In this document: in pieces, positions 17,415-35,283 of the stretch
How the letters are laid out: every line of letters begins with the position of its first letter
How positions within the stretch are numbered: position 1 is the stretch's first letter
Assembly: GCA_020425695.1 (NCBI GenBank)
Contig: JAGQRE010000025.1
Coordinates: forward strand, 1-35,700
Source of the DNA: Planctomycetota bacterium
Lineage (GTDB): Bacteria > Planctomycetota > UBA8742 > UBA2392
DNA: 35,700 nucleotides
Direction: 5' to 3'
Notes under the pieces: model-generated
What the model was told of the DNA's origin: nothing
What the model saw: the letters and a program-made list of their open reading frames with translations, nothing else
Database searches by the model: none
Program-made: the position numbers and the translations under genes

Positions 17415-18452
17415 CTACGCTTGTGCGGCTGCCCGGTTCAATTCGTGGATTCGTTTCAATGTCTGGGGCTCGCATTCAAGTGTGAGCACGTCGCCGGTTT
17501 CGATCACGACGTCCGTCGGTGGATGGAAAACCGTTCCTTCACCGCGCTTGTAGGTAACGACGACAAGCTGGTGCGTCTTGATCAACTGCCCGACTGTCGT
17601 GCCAACCAACTCGCTGCCTTCGTTGACCGGTATACGTGCGATCACCAGCAGTCGCTTCTCGACGTAGAAGCTGTTGAGGATGCATGAGTCCATGCTCGCC
17701 GTCGCGAACAACGGGGCCGACAACATGGCCGTGCTGAACGCGAGATGGATGTCCATCGTGTCCTGAATTTTCTCGGCCAGTTCCTGGTCATACATGCGCA
17801 GCACGATACGAAGCTTGGGGCGAATCTTGCGCGCGTCGATGGCAAGCTCAAGGTTCGCAAGGTCGTCATTGGTCGCGCAGATCAACGACTTCGCCTGCTT
17901 GATGTTGACGTCGTCAAGGATGCCTTCTTCGCGCCCGTTGCCGAGGCGCACCGGCACGCCGTGGTTCTTGGCGTAGGCGATGTTCGGGCATTGTTCGTCT
18001 TTCTCGATGACCACGACGTGCTCGCCCAGTGCGACAAGTTGTTCCAGCACTCGAAAACCCACTTTGCCGAGCCCGAACAGCACGACGTGTTTGCTCATGG
18101 TTTCGCTCATGGCACGTACCCATTCCGGTGAAAGTTCGTCGCGTCGAAACGCGTAGTATGAGAAGCGAATGAAGCCGTCGAGCACGACGACAAGCCCAAG
18201 CAGCGGCAGCACGACGTACAGGATTTCCAGCAGCCAGTGCGCAGGCCACGGCAGTACAGGCTCGCCGGTCAGCAGCGCGAAGGCCGTCCAAATCGCCTGT
18301 GTGAAGCCAAGCGGGCGGTCGTACAAGAAGAAGAACGCGAGCCCACCAAAGAACACGACGCCCATGGCGAACCCAAACAGCGGCAGAAACCGCCGCAACG
18401 GTTTGCGCAGGTAGTAGATCCACGCACGAATTCGGCGTTCTTTGCTTCGCAT
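17415..18452 (-). CDS. Two-TM / RCK (TrkA-N, TrkA-C) channel-like protein without K+ filter
   Basis: A 345-aa membrane protein with the layout of a prokaryotic potassium channel. It has a basic N-terminus, TM1 (about 22-44), a re-entrant-like segment (about 48-70), TM2 (about 74-96), an RCK/TrkA-N NAD-binding domain starting 'HVVLFGLGKVG' (122-132) with Glu150 at the ribose-binding position, and a TrkA-C domain (about 255-335, ending 'GDVLTLECEPQTL'). The expected 'TVGYGD' filter is replaced by 'LLTGEPVLP'. It may therefore conduct another ion, be non-conducting, or serve as a nucleotide-controlled membrane regulator. The ATG at 18452 is clear. A REPIN-like repeat lies 51 bp upstream. Confidence 0.85.
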   Translation of the reverse strand: MRSKERRIRAWIYYLRKPLRRFLPLFGFAMGVVFFGGLAFFFLYDRPLGFTQAIWTAFALLTGEPVLPWPAHWLLEILYVVLPLLGLVVVLDGFIRFSYYAFRRDELSPEWVRAMSETMSKHVVLFGLGKVGFRVLEQLVALGEHVVVIEKDEQCPNIAYAKNHGVPVRLGNGREEGILDDVNIKQAKSLICATNDDLANLELAIDARKIRPKLRIVLRMYDQELAEKIQDTMDIHLAFSTAMLSAPLFATASMDSCILNSFYVEKRLLVIARIPVNEGSELVGTTVGQLIKTHQLVVVTYKRGEGTVFHPPTDVVIETGDVLTLECEPQTLKRIHELNRAAAQA

Positions 18453-21954: not shown

Positions 21955-22329
21955 CTAGGTCTTGGCGAGGGTTAGCCCGTGGCGGTGGAGGGCTTCTTTG
22001 ATTTCGGCTGTGCTCTCGTCGCCGAGCCCGGTTTTGCGGACGGCGCTTTCGGTGGTCAGCGTCAGGTCCCTGACGCGCTCGACGCCGATGGCTCGCAGCT
22101 TCTTGTTGATGCGCAGGGGCAGCTCAAGCACTTCCAGCGGCTCGGCCAGGATGTCCACTTCAATCGACCCGCTGTCCGGCAACTCATTCTGCCGCAGGCG
22201 TTCCGTCATCATGGCCTGGGCGATGCGGTAGGCTTCGCGCGCGAGTTCCTCTTCCGATTCCCACTCACGGTCAGTCAGCAAGGCCTGCATGGCGGCCGCG
22301 GCAAACTTGTCGAGTTGCGTACTGGACAC
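21955..22329 (-). CDS. RNA polymerase alpha C-terminal-domain-like protein
   Basis: A 124-aa soluble protein. Residues 64-121 match the helix-hairpin-helix fold of the RNA polymerase alpha C-terminal domain: 'PLEVLELPLRINKKLRAIGV', 'VRDLTLTTESAVRKTGLGD' and 'EIKEALHRHGLTL'. The N-terminal 60 residues are helical and acidic and do not look like the alpha assembly domain. It might bind DNA or an RNA polymerase partner, as alpha-CTD does. The start is a GTG at 22329 with an AGGAGA ribosome site at 22334-22339, 4 nt away. It follows the 1143-aa phosphatase/STAND gene by 70 bp on the same strand and is closed off by a REPIN-like repeat. Confidence 0.78.
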   Translation of the reverse strand: MSSTQLDKFAAAAMQALLTDREWESEEELAREAYRIAQAMMTERLRQNELPDSGSIEVDILAEPLEVLELPLRINKKLRAIGVERVRDLTLTTESAVRKTGLGDESTAEIKEALHRHGLTLAKT

Positions 22330-22399: not shown

Positions 22400-25300
22400 C
22401 TACGATTCGTCTTCGTGCATCTTCAGCGGCTTGAATGGGCTCATGCCGCACTTCATGCATTTCTTCAGCGAGCGGATTCTTCCCTCCGACCCCATGTAGC
22501 GCTGGGCGCACACGGGGCACCGGACACGGATGCGAATGGCTTCTTCGGGTGTGGCCGGTACGTCAAGCAACTCCATGCCGGCGCGTTCGAAGTAGTTGAT
22601 GCTGTACTGTGTGTAGCCGTTGGCCGCGGCCAGCTCGCGCGCCATGGCCGCGAAACGCGTTGCGTTCGCCTGCTTGCCCTGCGCCTGAAGCACGCGGGCG
22701 CGCAACACCGTCGCCAGAAACTGCACGTCGGGCATGGGCGGCTTCGCGTTTTCGATCTGCGGCAGCGCTTCGATTACGAGGTTCATTGTTTTGTCGAGAT
22801 GCCCACACTTGAACTCAGCCAGCGCGAGCAGCGCCTTGTTCGTCAGCCTCAGCGAAGCCTCCGGTCGTTTGGAGGTCTGCTCGTCGTTCTCGGCCAGGAT
22901 GTTGCGGGCTTTCGTGAAGTCGCCGTCCTCGATCTCGATCAGGCCCAGCAAGCGGTTCAGGCGCATCGTCAGCAGTTGGGTGCGCGAAATGCTGGCAAAG
23001 CGTTTCACGTGCGCTGCGGCTTCGCGGGCGGCGTCGATGTCGCCGACGCTCAGACACAGGGTGCCCATGTCGAGACGCGTGACCGATGCATTGATGCCGT
23101 GGCCGGCCTCCTGAAACAGGGACAGGGCGGTCATGTAATGCTCAATGGCTGACTCGGGCTGGCCTTTGCCCTCAAGCAAGCGGGCGAGCGAAAGCTCGCG
23201 CATGGCGCTCATTTCACGGCTGCCGGTTTGCTCGGTGATGTCTCTGGTTTGCTCAATCAAAGCTTCTGCGTCGTCCCAGCGTTTCTGGCGCAGGTACAGC
23301 ATAATGAGGTTTGTATTCGCGACGTGGGCCTGGTGCAGGTCACCCAAAGACTCGAGCAGCTTGTTCGCTTCCCGGAACATGCGCTCGGCATCGCCGAAGC
23401 GGTTCTGACGGCTGGCGATGTTTGCGATTGAGATCTGGGCAACACCGACGTTGCGCTCGTTGCCCGTGCGCTGGGCAATCTCGATGACTCGCTCGAAATC
23501 CTCAAGCCCGCGTTGCTCATTGCCCATGTTGCCGGCGGCGCGCCCTCGCATCATCAGGCTTGAGATCAGCGCGGTCGTCAGGTTCTTCTCTTCGGCGAAA
23601 TCGACGGCCTGGGTTGCGTGAAGCAGCGCGTCCTGGGCATTGCCACCGGTGAGTTCGTCTGCCGCTTTCATCTGGATGACGAGTACGCGGTCGATGTCGC
23701 TGAGCCTGTCTCGTAGCTCCCAGAATTCGTTGACCAGCGGACGGATGTTGCCGCTGCCGCGCTGGTCACGGCAATGATAGAGGGCGTCAAACAGGCGCAT
23801 GGCTGACTTGAGGTCACCGCGGTCCATGGCGACGCGCATGGCATTGCGAATGTTGTCGGCATCAAGGGCGATGCGCTCGGTGGCCTCGACAAGTTTCCGA
23901 CTCGACCTGGCGTCGTTCCAGACCGAGGCGTACTTGACGAAAAATGCGATGTGGCGTTTCTCAAAGTCGTCGTTTTCGCCTTGTTGGGTCAGCCGTGAAG
24001 CAAAGTCGCGCAGGCTTGAGTACGTGTTGAAACGTGTGCCGTAGGGCGTGCTTTCGCGCCGCAGGAAGCTTTTGTGCAACAGGTTGTCGATGGCTTCGAT
24101 GACGCTTCGGTTCGCGTTGCCGCGCGGCACGATCACGACTTCCTCCGCGGCCTCAAGAAAGAACCCGCCGCGGAATGCGCACATCTGGCGGAAGCACGCT
24201 TGCTCCCAGTCTTCGAGGTGCGCGTAGCTCCACTCAAGCGCTTCGCGCATGGACCGGTACGGCAGGGCGGACTCACCCGCCTGCGCACGAAGCATGGCAA
24301 TCTTGTTTGTCGGCGTGCGCAGTTGACGAAAGACCTCACCCGGCGTGAGTTGCCCCAGCCTTGACGCGGCAAGTTCAATGGCCAGGGGCATGCCTTCCAG
24401 TTCAGCGCAGATGCCAAGCACGGGCTGCACGTTTTCGGCCGTCAACTTGAAGTCCGGTTTCACACGCTGTGCACGGTCAATCAGTAAACCGACCGAAGCA
24501 AAGTCGATCGCTTCTTCAAAGCTGACATTGCGGAAGGCCGAGCCGGGTGATGCCAGCGGCTTGATCTCAATTTCATGCTCGTCTGACTGCCCGAGGTGAA
24601 GCTGACTTGTGACGATGCACCGGGTGCTCGGCGCATCTCGCCGCAGATGTTCAAGCACGCTGCGCAGGGCCTCAATGCAGGTCTCGGCGTTGTCGAGAAC
24701 CAGCAGTGTTGGTCCGCGAAGTTCCAGCGCGTTTGCCAGGGCGGCGGCGGGATCAGCGCCCAGCCCGCCCAGCCCGAGCTCGCCTGCAACCGCCCCAACG
24801 ACGGAGGCGACGTCGACGCAGTTGTCGAGCGCAACAAACCACGTCCCGCCGATGTAATCGTTTGCCACTTCACGGGCGGCCTCCAGGGCCAGCCGCGTTT
24901 TCCCCAACCCCGCCACGCCGACAATCGGGATGACGCTGTGCCCTTCTTCAAGCGCCGCGCCGATCGCCAGCATCTCCTCTTCGCGTCCGATGAAACTGTT
25001 CGAGCGGGCGGGCAGGTTCGACTCGATATGGGGCTGCCAGGCCGGTTGCAGTTCGGGTTCGCTTACACCCCTGAAGCGCAGGGCGAGCATCGTGACGTCG
25101 TCGTCGGTCTCACGCCCAGCCCGGAACGTCTCGACGTCCATCTGAACGGACTGCAACACCTCAATGGCGCTGCCCGTGGGGGCGTTGGCGAACGACTCAT
25201 TCAGCCGGTCGGTACCGAACTGCTCGTCGTTATGGTCGGCCGCTTCGCTGACGCCGTCTGTATAGAACAGCAGCCAGTCACCCGGCGTCAGTTGCAGGGT

Positions 25301-25831
25301 TTCTTCTTTCAGCCGGTCGCGCATGACGTTCACGAATGCCGAGCCCAGGACGACACCCGCCGACGTGTGCGACGTGATCTCTCCGTTGGGCAGCCTGCGC
25401 AGAAATGGGTTGTGCCCGGCTGAAGCGTACCGCAACAGCCCCGTCTGAAGGTTCACAACCCCGTACCAGACAGTCACGAAACTGCCCGCAGGCAGGTCGG
25501 TCGCCAGGTCTTCGCATGAGATTTTCAAGACCTCGGCCGGGGAAGGATTGCGGCGCCCGTGGATCTGCAGGGTCTTCTTGGCGGCGGCCATCATGAGCGC
25601 GGCGTCGAGCCCGTGGCCGGAGACGTCGGCCAGCACAATGCCGAGCTCGGTGGGGGAGACCTGGATGAAATCGTAGAAGTCGCCGCCCAGTTCCTCGCAG
25701 GCTTCGTAGTGGACGCCGATCTCAAGCTCCGGCAGCACCGGGGCGTCCGGCAGCATGCCAAGCTGCACCGCACGCGCGCGCAAGAGCGAGCGTGTCACCC
25801 GTGTGCGCTGTTCGGTGTTCTCCGAAGCCAT
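22400..25831 (-). CDS. SpoIIE/PP2C phosphatase - STAND ATPase - TPR - zinc ribbon fusion protein
   Basis: A 1143-aa cytosolic signalling protein. Residues 30-255 are a SpoIIE/RsbU-type PP2C phosphatase with 'GGDFYD' (49-54), 'LADVSGHG' (67-74), 'AGHNP' (138-142), 'YTDGVSEA' (190-197) and 'TDDDVTML' (242-249), so the metal-binding acids are intact. Residues about 275-560 form a STAND/AP-ATPase: 'FIGREEE', Walker A 'GVAGLGKTR' (305-313), Walker B 'LLVLDNAE' (376-383), 'IVTSQ' (406-410) and the GxP motif 'GMPLAIELAASR' (480-491). A winged-helix region and about 450 residues of TPR-like helices follow. A four-Cys zinc ribbon (Cys1105, 1108, 1125, 1128) ends the protein. RsbU-like phosphatases dephosphorylate anti-sigma antagonists; here nucleotide-gated sensing probably controls that output. 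The ATG at 25831 has only a weak ribosome site. Confidence 0.93.
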   Translation of the reverse strand: MASENTEQRTRVTRSLLRARAVQLGMLPDAPVLPELEIGVHYEACEELGGDFYDFIQVSPTELGIVLADVSGHGLDAALMMAAAKKTLQIHGRRNPSPAEVLKISCEDLATDLPAGSFVTVWYGVVNLQTGLLRYASAGHNPFLRRLPNGEITSHTSAGVVLGSAFVNVMRDRLKEETLQLTPGDWLLFYTDGVSEAADHNDEQFGTDRLNESFANAPTGSAIEVLQSVQMDVETFRAGRETDDDVTMLALRFRGVSEPELQPAWQPHIESNLPARSNSFIGREEEMLAIGAALEEGHSVIPIVGVAGLGKTRLALEAAREVANDYIGGTWFVALDNCVDVASVVGAVAGELGLGGLGADPAAALANALELRGPTLLVLDNAETCIEALRSVLEHLRRDAPSTRCIVTSQLHLGQSDEHEIEIKPLASPGSAFRNVSFEEAIDFASVGLLIDRAQRVKPDFKLTAENVQPVLGICAELEGMPLAIELAASRLGQLTPGEVFRQLRTPTNKIAMLRAQAGESALPYRSMREALEWSYAHLEDWEQACFRQMCAFRGGFFLEAAEEVVIVPRGNANRSVIEAIDNLLHKSFLRRESTPYGTRFNTYSSLRDFASRLTQQGENDDFEKRHIAFFVKYASVWNDARSSRKLVEATERIALDADNIRNAMRVAMDRGDLKSAMRLFDALYHCRDQRGSGNIRPLVNEFWELRDRLSDIDRVLVIQMKAADELTGGNAQDALLHATQAVDFAEEKNLTTALISSLMMRGRAAGNMGNEQRGLEDFERVIEIAQRTGNERNVGVAQISIANIASRQNRFGDAERMFREANKLLESLGDLHQAHVANTNLIMLYLRQKRWDDAEALIEQTRDITEQTGSREMSAMRELSLARLLEGKGQPESAIEHYMTALSLFQEAGHGINASVTRLDMGTLCLSVGDIDAAREAAAHVKRFASISRTQLLTMRLNRLLGLIEIEDGDFTKARNILAENDEQTSKRPEASLRLTNKALLALAEFKCGHLDKTMNLVIEALPQIENAKPPMPDVQFLATVLRARVLQAQGKQANATRFAAMARELAAANGYTQYSINYFERAGMELLDVPATPEEAIRIRVRCPVCAQRYMGSEGRIRSLKKCMKCGMSPFKPLKMHEDES

Positions 25832-25895: not shown

Positions 25896-26780
25896 TCACT
25901 TGGAGCGCAGGTTGACCGTGATATCGGCCTTGCCGTCAACGAAGTCATCGGCACTCAGCACAACGGTCTGACTTACGCTCCTGCCGTGCTCATACTGGGC
26001 GTCGAGCAACTCCACCTGCAGAGTGCGGTTGTCGGAAACGACGGGGCGCAGCCCGACAATTCGGTAATCTGGGCCTGTGCCGGTGAGTCTCAGTCCGAAG
26101 GAACTGCGATTCTCCCAGCTCGAGATAACGGCTCGTCCGTGGTAGGGCTCACCATGGAAGAACAAGCGAAGCCTCAATTCGTGACCCTCCGAGCCCAGCG
26201 TGATTTGACCCAGGTCGAGTAACTTGTGGTCCGCGAAATCCAGGCGGGCATGATGCTGGTACAGGGTGTTGTCGGTTGCATCCCTGTAGGCCACGTACAA
26301 GTCAAAGGTTGATTTTGCGCCTTCACCGTCGAATGAACGAACGATCAGATTGCCGCCGGAGTCGGTAGAGGCGAGTGTGTCGTAGCTCCGACGCATTCCC
26401 GCTTGGTTTGAATGGCGATCCAGCTCTACCACCGCGCTTTCAGCCGGTTGTCCATTGGGCAGGACGAACCTCGCTTTGAGCACACGATGCGAATGAGGAA
26501 CACTGATCTCGTAGTGGATCTTGTCGCCGTTCGCGTCGATTGTCTGGACTGCTACCTGGTCCGAAAACGTGAAAAACCGCCCGCCGCTGAACAGGGCCCA
26601 GGCGGCCAGCCCTATGGCCAACCACTTCCAATTTGCACTCACACCGGACTGCTTTGGCGGTGGGTCCCAGATGCTTGTGCCGCGCTGCTTTTGCCGCTTT
26701 GCGCTGACTAGCGTCAACGCGAACAGGATTCCGACGAACACGAAAGAGCCGGTGAGGACCAAACCTGCTTCTATCGACAT
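25896..26780 (-). CDS. Membrane-anchored protein of unknown function with two N-terminal helices
   Basis: A 294-aa protein I do not recognise. It begins with two hydrophobic helices (about 5-27 and 52-68) joined by a basic loop with 'WDPPPKQ'. The remaining 220 residues are mostly beta, Asp/Ser/Arg-rich and probably extracytoplasmic, as in an exported beta-sandwich domain. The start at 26780 is set by GGAG at 26786-26789, 5 nt upstream; an in-frame ATG at 26816 would precede that site. It lies 64 bp upstream of the phosphatase/STAND gene on the same strand and may provide its extracellular input, which is inference. Confidence 0.7.
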   Translation of the reverse strand: MSIEAGLVLTGSFVFVGILFALTLVSAKRQKQRGTSIWDPPPKQSGVSANWKWLAIGLAAWALFSGGRFFTFSDQVAVQTIDANGDKIHYEISVPHSHRVLKARFVLPNGQPAESAVVELDRHSNQAGMRRSYDTLASTDSGGNLIVRSFDGEGAKSTFDLYVAYRDATDNTLYQHHARLDFADHKLLDLGQITLGSEGHELRLRLFFHGEPYHGRAVISSWENRSSFGLRLTGTGPDYRIVGLRPVVSDNRTLQVELLDAQYEHGRSVSQTVVLSADDFVDGKADITVNLRSK

Positions 26781-26840
26781 GACATCTCCGGTCTCAGTGC
26801 TGGCACTTTTGATCATAGTTGTGGCAGTGCAGAAATGAAA

Positions 26841-26867
26841 ACGGAACCGGCTAAAGGCCGGTTCCGT
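26841..26867 (-). terminator. Terminator downstream of the GspE/PilB-type ATPase gene
   Basis: Perfect 11-bp stem ACGGAACCGGC (26841-26851) with 26857-26867 around a 5-nt loop. On the minus strand it is followed by TTTTCATTTC, so it should end the GspE transcript. It lies 18 bp after that stop and separates it from the unknown membrane-protein gene. Confidence 0.88.
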
Positions 26868-26885: not shown

Positions 26886-28589
26886 CTAGAATGTGTCGCG
26901 CTGGGTGATCGTTGCGATCTCTGAGAGTGTCGTCTGGCCCAGGATCGCCTTGCGCACGCCGTCCATGCGCAGGGTTCGCAGCCCGCCGGTTTGTACCGCG
27001 TCGCGCTTGATTTCGCCGGCCGCGACCTTTTCTACGATCTGTTGCTTGATGTGTTCCGTGATCGGCAGAACTTCGTGGATGGCGGTTCGCCCCGTAAACC
27101 CAGTCTTGAAACAGGCCTCGCAGCCGTCGCCATGCAGCAGCACACCGTTCGGCAGGTCAGCCGTCGTGAGGTCGAAATTGCGTAACTCGCGCTCGTCCGG
27201 GATGTACTCCGACTTGCACTCTTTGCAGATGCGGCGCACGAGGCGCTGGGCAACTACGCAGATCACCGAGGACGAAACCAGGAACGGTTCAACCCCCAGG
27301 TCCACGAGTCGTGTCACGCTGGAAGGCGCGTCGTTGGTGTGCAGCGTGCTGAACACCAAGTGACCCGTCAGGGCCGACTGGATGGCGATGTGCCCGGTTT
27401 CAAGGTCACGAATTTCGCCGACGAGGATGACATCCGGGTCCTGGCGCACGAAACTGCGCAGCGCCTTGGCGAAGGTCAGCCCCTTCTTTTCGTTTACTTC
27501 AACCTGGCTGGCGCCGGGCATCTGGTATTCGATCGGGTCTTCAATCGTGAGGATGTTGATGTCGGGGCGGTTGATGTTACCGATGGCGGCGTACAGCGTT
27601 GTCGTCTTGCCTGAGCCGGTGGGGCCGGTCAGCAGGATGATGCCGTTTGAGTACTCAAGATAGGTGTTAAAGATCTCCTCGTTGTCCGGCATGAAGCCGA
27701 TATCCGCGAGGTGGAACTGCTTGTTGTTCTTTTCAAGCAAACGAATGACTACGCGTTCGCCGTAGTTGGTGGGCACGGTGCTGATACGCAGGTCGATGTC
27801 GGCGTCGCCCATCTTGACGCTGGCGCGACCGTCCTGCGGCAGGCGGCGCTCGGCGATGTCCATGCGCCCCATGACTTTGATACGCGCGACGATGGCATCC
27901 TGCAGCTTTTTGCTGGGTGTCATCACGTCGTACAGCACACCGTCAACCCGGTAGCGCACCTGCAGTTTGTGCTCGCTGGGCTGGATGTGAATGTCCGAGG
28001 CGCGCATGCGCAGTGACTGGCTGAAAATCGTGTTCACGAGCTTGATGATCGGCGCCGCAGTCGCGACGTTCAGGATGTCTGTCTTTTCGTTGAACTCGAC
28101 GTCGCTTTCGAGCATGCCTTCGGCTTCAAGGTCGCGCTCGACTTCGTCGCTGATCTCACTTTTCTGTGAGTAGTTCTTGTTGATCAGTTCGCTGATTTCG
28201 ACGCGCGGGGCAAGCACCGGCTCGATCGGCTTGCGCAGCAGGCTTGCCAACTCGTCCATCGGGTACAGGTCGAGGGGGCGGCAGGTTGCGACGCGTACGC
28301 TTCCGCCGACTTCGTTCAGGGCAATCAGGTTGTAATTGCGCGCGAAACCGGATGGCACGCGCTCTGCGAATTTGGGGTACGGCTTGTAGCCCGACAAATC
28401 ACCCTCAAAGGGCAGCCCAAGCTGCTGGCTGAAGAACTGCAGCATGTCGGATTCGCCAAGAATGCCGGATTCGACCAGCGCGGAGTCCAGCTTGTCCCCG
28501 TTTTCTTTGGCCTTGCTGATCAAATGCTCAACTTTGTCCTCACGGACGCCGTGTTCTTCGATCAGATATCTGGCAAGCAGTTGCGACAT
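26886..28589 (-). CDS. GspE/PilB-type secretion or pilus assembly ATPase
   Basis: A 567-aa cytoplasmic hexameric ATPase that powers type II secretion or type IV pilus assembly. It has an N-terminal MshEN/GspE-N domain (about 1-140), Walker A 'GPTGSGKTT' (322-330), Asp box 'LTIEDPIEY' (347-355), Walker B 'ILVGEIRD' (388-395), His box 'GHLVFSTLHTND' (409-420) and a tetra-Cys zinc site (Cys455, 458, 490, 493), which is typical of extension ATPases rather than PilT. All catalytic motifs are intact. ATG 28589 is preferred, with GGGG about 8 nt upstream; a GTG at 28604 would add 5 residues. No gspF/pilC gene adjoins. The secretin at 2.4 kb could be a partner, but this is inference. Confidence 0.94.
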   Translation of the reverse strand: MSQLLARYLIEEHGVREDKVEHLISKAKENGDKLDSALVESGILGESDMLQFFSQQLGLPFEGDLSGYKPYPKFAERVPSGFARNYNLIALNEVGGSVRVATCRPLDLYPMDELASLLRKPIEPVLAPRVEISELINKNYSQKSEISDEVERDLEAEGMLESDVEFNEKTDILNVATAAPIIKLVNTIFSQSLRMRASDIHIQPSEHKLQVRYRVDGVLYDVMTPSKKLQDAIVARIKVMGRMDIAERRLPQDGRASVKMGDADIDLRISTVPTNYGERVVIRLLEKNNKQFHLADIGFMPDNEEIFNTYLEYSNGIILLTGPTGSGKTTTLYAAIGNINRPDINILTIEDPIEYQMPGASQVEVNEKKGLTFAKALRSFVRQDPDVILVGEIRDLETGHIAIQSALTGHLVFSTLHTNDAPSSVTRLVDLGVEPFLVSSSVICVVAQRLVRRICKECKSEYIPDERELRNFDLTTADLPNGVLLHGDGCEACFKTGFTGRTAIHEVLPITEHIKQQIVEKVAAGEIKRDAVQTGGLRTLRMDGVRKAILGQTTLSEIATITQRDTF

Positions 28590-28679
28590 GATGAACCCCA
28601 GCACGAAACGTTGTGTCCCGGAAACTCGAAATCCGGACGCTTGAGTTTAACGCCTGTCATGGCCGGAAGTTGGGCAGAT

Positions 28680-34476: not shown

Positions 34477-34491
34477 GTCAGGCTACTTTTT
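34477..34491. repeat. Transposase-flanking repeat, right-inverted copy
   Basis: GTCAGGCTACTTTTT is the exact reverse complement of 35319-35333 and 35375-35389 on the other side of the transposase gene. The TAG stop codon of that gene (34483-34485) lies within this copy. Confidence 0.75.
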
Positions 34492-35283
34492 AGCCCGCTT
34501 GGGTGGCCGGCCACGGGGGCGCATGGTGGAATCCAGCCCCAGCTTCGCGGCTGTTTTCTCGCGCCACTTTGGGTTTCCGAAGGGCGCGCCACGGTTCACG
34601 CTTTCGCGGATTGCCTCCAGCTCAGCGGCCTCCTCTCTGTGATTCACAAACTTCAACCACGGCTCCGGGCGCTTCACCGGCCCAAGTTGCAGCCAGCTTT
34701 CAATAGGGCGCGCGGCACGCGTGAAGTCGCCGTCGAGTTTCACGGGGTCTGGCACCATGGGGACTGGCACCATTTCGCGCAGCGAATTGGTGCCTGACCC
34801 CTTTAAGCGTGCGGAAACTGAGCCAGACCCCTGCGCACCCTTTTCCAGCCACGCTGCAGCACTGGACCACGCCCAGTCTTGTGCGCGCTTAACCAACCCG
34901 GCGCGTACCGGGTTGCGTTCGACGTAGCGCAGCACAGACAGAAGCGAGCCGCCGCCCTGGATCGGGAACGACTTGTAGCGCCCCTGCCAGACGTGCCCCG
35001 TGGTTTTGTAGTGCCGGTGATAGCGCCGCACGTGGCACGTGGTCGCCCATTGCATCATGCGCGGAAGATCGTCGTCGCCGCGAGGCCAGGCCACGAAATG
35101 GAAGTGGTTCGGCATCAGACACCACGCCAGCAGGCGCATATCATGGCGCTCGCAGCCAAGTGAGAGGATGCGCAGAAAGGCCTCGTAGTCAGCGTCCTTG
35201 TGGAAAACAGCAGCCCGGCCATTGCCGCGATTGATAACATGGCAACAAAGATCAGCAGGAGAGTAACGGGCAGGCCGAGGCAT
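34483..35283 (-). CDS. REP-associated tyrosine transposase (RAYT, Y1_Tnp family)
   Basis: A 266-aa single-strand DNA transposase-like enzyme of the HUH/Y1 class thought to move REP palindromes. It has 'HVINRGNGRAAVFH' near the start, the metal-binding HxH in 'MPNHFHFVAWP' (His60, His62), 'GHVWQGRYKSF', and the catalytic Tyr120 in 'LRYVERNPVRAGLV'. The C-terminal part 'ESVNRGAPFG...LGLDSTMRPRGRP' matches one RAYT subgroup. Residues 161-180, and probably 148-180, are encoded by the palindromic REP-like sequence itself, read in frame. Catalytic residues are intact, so it may still be active. The stop lies inside a flanking repeat. No clear ribosome site precedes the ATG. Confidence 0.92.
   Translation of the reverse strand: MPRPARYSPADLCCHVINRGNGRAAVFHKDADYEAFLRILSLGCERHDMRLLAWCLMPNHFHFVAWPRGDDDLPRMMQWATTCHVRRYHRHYKTTGHVWQGRYKSFPIQGGGSLLSVLRYVERNPVRAGLVKRAQDWAWSSAAAWLEKGAQGSGSVSARLKGSGTNSLREMVPVPMVPDPVKLDGDFTRAARPIESWLQLGPVKRPEPWLKFVNHREEAAELEAIRESVNRGAPFGNPKWREKTAAKLGLDSTMRPRGRPPKRAKK
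34744..34801. repeat. Short REP-like hairpin, copy B, inside the transposase gene
   Basis: The arms GGGGTCTGGCACCA (34744-34757) and 34788-34801 are inverted repeats with one mismatch, and the inner stem TTCGC-GCA-GCGAA (34774-34786) equals copy A. The left arm is partly duplicated (GGCACCAT at 34751-34758 and again at 34766-34773). It is translated as residues 161-180 of the transposase. A further half-site GCCAGACCCC follows near 34822-34831. Confidence 0.85.

Follow-up and report, generated by a model that had tools for sequence, protein, structure and literature searches.

A SpoIIE/RsbU-type phosphatase fused to a STAND-TPR core in one order of Planctomycetota: a candidate ligand-gated phosphatase

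The effectors known to be driven by STAND switches are of the DNA-binding, kinase, protease-recruiting and death types. The protein described here (P0001, 1143 residues) joins a STAND module to a SpoIIE/RsbU-type PPM phosphatase domain and is encoded at 22400-25831, minus strand, of a 35,700-nucleotide stretch of DNA from a Planctomycetota bacterium (contig JAGQRE010000025.1 of assembly GCA_020425695.1); the whole of this stretch is referred to below as the window. Among the systems with which it was compared, the STAND proteins MalT, PH0952, AfsR and PknK share with it a NOD containing Walker A, Walker B and GxP motifs and a winged helix, followed by a TPR sensor, with the effector placed at one end, but their effectors are DNA-binding, SARP or kinase domains rather than a PPM phosphatase. 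Autoinhibition between NOD and sensor has been established for PH0952, MalT and AfsR (PMC6468293, PMC4381067, PMC10936776). In MalT and PH0952 the ADP-bound NOD is kept shut by the sensor together with the arm (PMC4381067, PMC6468293), and in MalT the NOD is opened for multimerisation by inducer and ATP (PMC4381067). APAF1/CED-4 and the plant NLR resistosomes have the same NOD fold and follow the same general plan, in which an effector at the N-terminus is followed by a NOD and a repeat sensor, whereas the window protein has no death, CC or TIR effector and its sequence relatives are bacterial regulators.

The phosphatase domain has the fold and metal-site motifs of RsbU, SpoIIE, RssB, Rv1364c and SiaA. 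In those proteins the sensor is usually N-terminal and the phosphatase lies towards the C-terminus; the arrangement in the window protein is inverted, with the STAND-TPR part as its presumed sensor. RsbU is switched on by linker-driven dimerisation of its phosphatase domains, and the helical linker is normally contributed by an N-terminal sensor (PMC12143880).

Domain organisation and predicted structure

The open reading frame (ORF) is uninterrupted on the minus strand, the plus strand across the same interval being broken by stop codons, and its start codon is backed by the orthologues, whose ORFs begin at the same methionine. A first-pass annotation made from the sequence alone had read the chain as phosphatase, STAND ATPase, TPR array and zinc ribbon; the first three parts and their order were upheld by Pfam, motif and fold comparisons, and the gene was reassigned to the minus strand. 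The N-terminal helix and PPM domain occupy residues 11-255 (25067-25801, minus strand). The phosphatase motifs that had been called intact, GGDFYD (49-54), DVSGHG (69-74), TDG (191-193) and DD (244-245), were accompanied by a Pfam SpoIIE match at residues 61-253 (E 3.5e-42), and the PPM fold together with the conserved metal-binding aspartates (acidic positions D54, D69, D192 and D244) assigns the domain to the SpoIIE/RsbU type.

The NOD, comprising NBD, HD and WHD, and the start of the arm follow at approximately residues 271-665 (23837-25021, minus strand), with Walker A GVAGLGKT at 305-312 (Lys311), Walker B LLVLDN at 376-381 and GxP, here GMP, at 480-482 (Pro482); the Pfam AAA_16 match at 280-400 (E 3.2e-7) was slightly below its gathering score. 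Walker A and B, GxP, a winged helix and a repeat sensor C-terminal to the NOD are all present, and the NOD is a STAND of the MalT/PknK/APAF1 type. The long TPR-like region likewise stood, as a helical array at approximately residues 666-1090 (22562-23836, minus strand): TPR_12 in three stretches (E 1.7e-20) and TPR_MalT at 888-1084 (E 2.2e-13) were over the Pfam cut-off, and the TPR families together span residues ~740 to 1084.

The putative zinc ribbon at residues 1098-1136 (22424-22540, minus strand) consists of two cysteine pairs, CPVC at 1105-1108 and CMKC at 1125-1128, in a CxxC-16-CxxC arrangement (C1105, C1108, C1125, C1128). All four cysteines are kept in the four orthologues, and a C-terminal Cys-pair ribbon occurs in exactly the 12 members of the clade to which the window protein belongs in the NOD tree; it is also a point of difference from MalT, PH0952, AfsR and PknK. 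This was the weakest part of the first reading of the chain: the cysteines are conserved, but no Pfam model over cut-off matched the ribbon, and AlphaFold2 confidence there was low.

The full chain was modelled with AlphaFold2, as the first-pass annotation had proposed, with a mean pLDDT of 77. The PPM and NOD blocks mostly reached 85-97; part of the TPR region and the C-terminus were modelled poorly, with helix pairs from ~697 to 1089 that were partly of low confidence. A single helix (residues 2-26) precedes the PPM domain, with nothing else N-terminal to it. Foldseek comparison of the model with the PDB returned both TPR-STAND and PPM phosphatase folds, the top match being the TPR-STAND protein PH0952 (6mfv, 2e-14), followed by the RsbU part of Rv1364c (4e-11), Apaf-1 (3e-10) and RssB (5e-10), with further matches to SiaA, SpoIIE and plant NLRs.

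Distribution, effector types and conservation

The window corresponds to contig C177 in a draft genome of 4.14 Mb and 341 contigs, which is 88.7% complete. Relatives of the STAND core were found in 16 of 16 genomes of its Planctomycetota family (f1) and SpoIIE-STAND-TPR proteins in 15 of them, many genomes having several. Thirty-nine distinct SpoIIE-STAND-TPR ORFs were gathered and aligned, including one from a genome of the same order (G174) and one broken copy. The phylum was sampled with 392 Planctomycetota genomes and a 16-sequence profile (A1), the three best candidates per genome being scored. Matches covering both phosphatase and STAND came only from family f1 and G174, and all profile matches elsewhere in this sample were to phosphatase alone or STAND alone; one genome of the same class (G273) gave a strong phosphatase match but was rejected as a fused relative, having no STAND fusion. 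Other phyla were sampled by a plasmid search and by a scan of 84,980 species that was seeded on the phosphatase motifs and was not exhaustive. The scan yielded two fused proteins among its best 80 loci (L079 and L080), both from family f1, and the STAND sequence relatives in the plasmid search were annotated as PknK-type kinases and LuxR/BTAD regulators. No description of a SpoIIE fusion with STAND, NB-ARC or TPR was found in the full-text literature searched, outside which most subscription papers lie. The first-pass annotation would have counted a common, already characterised family as a refutation; as far as seen, the architecture is neither, and the SpoIIE-STAND-TPR proteins appear to be an expanded, so far undescribed family, confined in this sample to one bacterial order.

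In the f1 genomes the same STAND-TPR core also bears, N-terminally, either a guanylate/adenylate cyclase catalytic domain or a sigma-54 AAA+ activator domain. These paralogues share with the window protein the core and the N-terminal position of the effector and differ from it in effector type; their NODs are ~28-36% identical to that of the window protein. The exchange of cyclase, sigma-54 AAA+ and phosphatase domains on one core gives independent support to the N-terminal domain as the output. Nucleotide cyclases and sigma-54 AAA+ activators work as dimers or oligomers, which fits a multimerising switch shared by all three. In the NOD tree the 12 sigma-54 proteins formed one clade and the phosphatase proteins fell into three, with weak deep forks; independent phosphatase-STAND fusions were considered and found unsupported, a single origin not being rejected (approximately unbiased (AU) test, p 0.16).

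Three individual proteins with the core were recorded. On contig C299 of the window genome a sigma-54 AAA+ activator domain is fused to the STAND-TPR core (L053:5125-8844, plus strand). Contig C159 of G174 encodes a 1521-residue chain with the order SpoIIE, STAND, TPR, Sigma54_activat and HTH_8, the last a Fis-type helix-turn-helix (HTH) domain (L173:697-5262, minus strand). In G257 a protein kinase domain is located at the C-terminal end of the core, with no N-terminal effector (L174:1757-5446, minus strand).

In the 39-sequence alignment Asp192, Asp244, Asp245, Lys311, Asp380 and Pro482 are invariant, key residues of the three STAND motifs read at first pass (Walker A, Walker B, GxP) among them, and none of the 38 intact ORFs lacks Asp54, Asp69 or His73. 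The sole exception is the broken copy in G007 (L172:1779-4883, minus strand), in which the N-terminal piece of the phosphatase lies in another frame and the STAND-TPR part stays open. Identity among four orthologues, with the near-identical pair G006/G007 left out, was 64-78% for the phosphatase, 50-55% for NBD-HD, 47-62% for WHD-arm, 25-42% for the TPR array, which is the fastest-diverging part, and 62-82% for the ribbon. The TPR array is also the least conserved part in the cyclase, the sigma-54 and two other phosphatase groups. A fall in identity from effector to NOD to TPR is what would be seen if the output stayed constant while the reader changed, and does not by itself prove ligand binding.

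Proposed mechanism and alternatives

The first-pass annotation had assigned the effector role in a STAND switch to the phosphatase and that of ligand reader to the TPR region. This is supported by the domain order, the intact catalytic and nucleotide motifs, the fold matches and the conservation gradient, as well as by the effector swapping across an expanded set of paralogues, which speaks for an N-terminal output; gating of the phosphatase by the STAND module is likely. The position of the PPM domain bears on how such gating might work. Among 74 other close relatives of the PPM domain, 73 carry it at least 40 residues into the chain, and in 58 no more than 40 residues separate its end from the C-terminus. 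Since the PPM domain of the window protein lies at the very N-terminus, with one helix before it, control should come from the C-terminal STAND, and with the phosphatase N-terminal the simplest mechanism would be that STAND assembly pulls the phosphatase domains together.

In the resting state the chain would be a monomer, and the arm and TPR array would keep its ADP-bound NOD closed. Binding of a ligand, either a small molecule or a protein, by the TPR region or arm would open the NOD and allow ADP to be exchanged for ATP, and the opened chains would then assemble. Assembly would bring the N-terminal PPM domains together into the dimer that RsbU-type phosphatases need for metal binding and activity, and the active phosphatase would act in trans to remove phosphate from Ser/Thr of another protein, the first candidate being a STAS-type antagonist, with a change in transcription as the outcome. 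The ADP/ATP switch, multimerisation and activation of the phosphatase as a dimer are inferred from characterised relatives, and any statement about the ligand, the substrate or the role of the zinc ribbon is a guess. Taken as a whole, a ligand-gated, multimerisation-activated Ser/Thr phosphatase is given about an even chance. Four points weigh against it: activation by assembly is carried over from relatives; AfsR is activated by ATP without a change in oligomeric state, so that multimerisation is not universal among STANDs (PMC10936776); no clear STAS or HATPase_c_2 neighbours of fused STAND loci were found by tblastn over ~785 kb; and in the trkA-linked group of phosphatase paralogues the TPR array does not diverge faster than the NOD.

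A STAS-specific form of this explanation, whose probability overlaps with that of the general one, is that the protein works as a counterpart of RsbU, removing phosphate from a STAS antagonist of the RsbV/SpoIIAA kind and so freeing a sigma factor. This is possible, on the doubtful side. Both sequence and fold assign the domain to the RsbU/SpoIIE/RssB type, and PPM phosphatases of the RsbU/SpoIIE type act on STAS proteins (PMC11418112). The search for STAS antagonists and anti-sigma kinases that had been recommended gave 9 STAS and 5 HATPase_c_2 matches over cut-off in the window genome, including unlinked copies such as those on C44 and C70, none of them near the SpoIIE-STAND gene. A compact partner-switching module, with genes for a 751-residue phosphatase, a 149-residue HATPase_c_2 kinase and a 117-residue STAS protein in a row, is located on contig C111 of the same genome (L225:3023-6165, minus strand), and the fact that it has a phosphatase of its own argues against a STAS-directed role for the window protein. 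So does the outcome of the tblastn search, in which seven of the STAS and HATPase_c_2 sequences served as queries and neither the window nor the surroundings of any fused STAND locus examined yielded a clear match; strong matches were obtained only in L078, a non-STAND locus with a C111-type module, and there was one weak match, in L039. The fused genes were not found in a linked RsbU-RsbW-RsbV module, which lowers only membership of such a linked module, as its members can act in trans. The connection to partner switching made at first pass is plausible, and a specific link of this kind found no support.

TPR arrays are general protein-binding modules, and the phosphatase could instead be constitutively active, with the STAND-TPR part mainly directing it to its substrates; divergence of the TPR array, the most variable part, would then reflect choice of substrate rather than ligand sensing, and the several paralogues of a genome could serve different substrates. 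We regard this as unlikely: the residues of Walker A, Walker B and GxP are invariant over 39 sequences, although a passive scaffold could do without them, and the core is also found with cyclase and sigma-54 effectors, which more commonly call for a switch.

Less probable still is that the substrates are other STAND paralogues or targets of Ser/Thr kinases, with phosphate being taken, for example, from a Walker A threonine, and that receptors of the phosphatase, cyclase and sigma-54 types thereby control one another. AfsR is phosphorylated on its last Walker A residue, T337 (PMC10936776), and of the 39 sequences 29 have Thr and 10 have Ser at the equivalent position, but a Thr or Ser there belongs to every Walker A motif and is uninformative by itself. 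The presence of phosphatase, STAND, TPR, sigma-54 activator and HTH in the single G174 chain also points in the direction of such cross-talk.

An anti-phage or NLR-like immune sensor with an abortive response through dephosphorylation, a role that the first reading had entertained, is very improbable, for although the NOD resembles those of Apaf-1 and plant NLRs in fold and the reader part diverges fast, there is no toxic effector, the gene is in stable chromosomal synteny with pilB with no mobile or defence context seen, the plasmid STAND relatives carry the kinase and regulator annotations given above, PADLOC returned only a generic TPR model (7e-5) with no match to a known defence STAND model (Avs, bNACHT), and a fold search of viral proteins gave generic PPM, TPR and AAA matches and no close viral relative.

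Genomic neighbourhood and implications

A stand-alone alpha-CTD-like protein of 124 residues (21955-22329, minus strand; Pfam RNA_pol_A_CTD 3e-6, synteny) is encoded 70 bases downstream of the SpoIIE-STAND gene and in the same direction. Upstream lies a co-directional gene for 306 residues (25896-26816, minus strand), which is perhaps on the same transcript, and the short gaps on both sides of the SpoIIE-STAND gene contain no terminator-like site on the coding strand. A strong terminator-like hairpin (26841-26867, minus strand) separates these downstream genes from a pilB/gspE-type ATPase gene (26886-28604, minus strand; Pfam T2SSE 1.6e-133, synteny), the conserved anchor of the locus. Four genomes of the genus (G000, G005, G006 and G007) share the order and direction of the pilB, STAND and alpha-CTD genes; in another genus member (L070) an unrelated 807-residue gene occupies the place of the STAND gene. 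The alpha-CTD-like gene is present in 12 of the 16 family genomes and adjoins or lies near pilB wherever the contig shows it. Its adjacency in all four orthologous loci had made it a candidate for a dedicated partner, which was rejected, since it is also found close behind pilB without the STAND gene in three other family genomes (L073, L074 and L075). Because pilB and the alpha-CTD-like gene adjoin without it in other family members, the STAND gene seems to be a newcomer in an older pair.

Elsewhere in the window a TrkA-type gene is located at 17415-18452 (minus strand). A SpoIIE-STAND-TPR paralogue stands directly beside a TrkA-type gene in L037, L055, L071, L074, L075 and L077; there is none beside that of the window, and this trkA-linked paralogue seems to have been lost or moved in the window genome. 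A gene at 34483-35283 (minus strand) resembles a REP-associated (Y1-type) transposase, by eye only.

For the proposed STAND-gated phosphatase, close paralogues with different effectors on the same switch make swap experiments possible, in which one NOD drives different outputs. The G174 chain, in which phosphatase, STAND, TPR, sigma-54 and HTH parts are combined, is an unusual single protein and could tie phosphatase output to transcription. If the gating described here is true, a phosphatase effector would extend the list of STAND outputs, and RsbU-type phosphatases would be predicted to be activatable by clustering from either end. In the broadest interpretation, offered tentatively and at somewhat less than even confidence, one Planctomycetota order may possess a lineage-specific receptor family that has placed a single NLR-like switch on three chemistries, protein phosphatase, nucleotide cyclase and sigma-54 activator, and in the window member, for the first time in a STAND, assembly may turn on a protein phosphatase directly, through a dimer induced from the C-terminal side.

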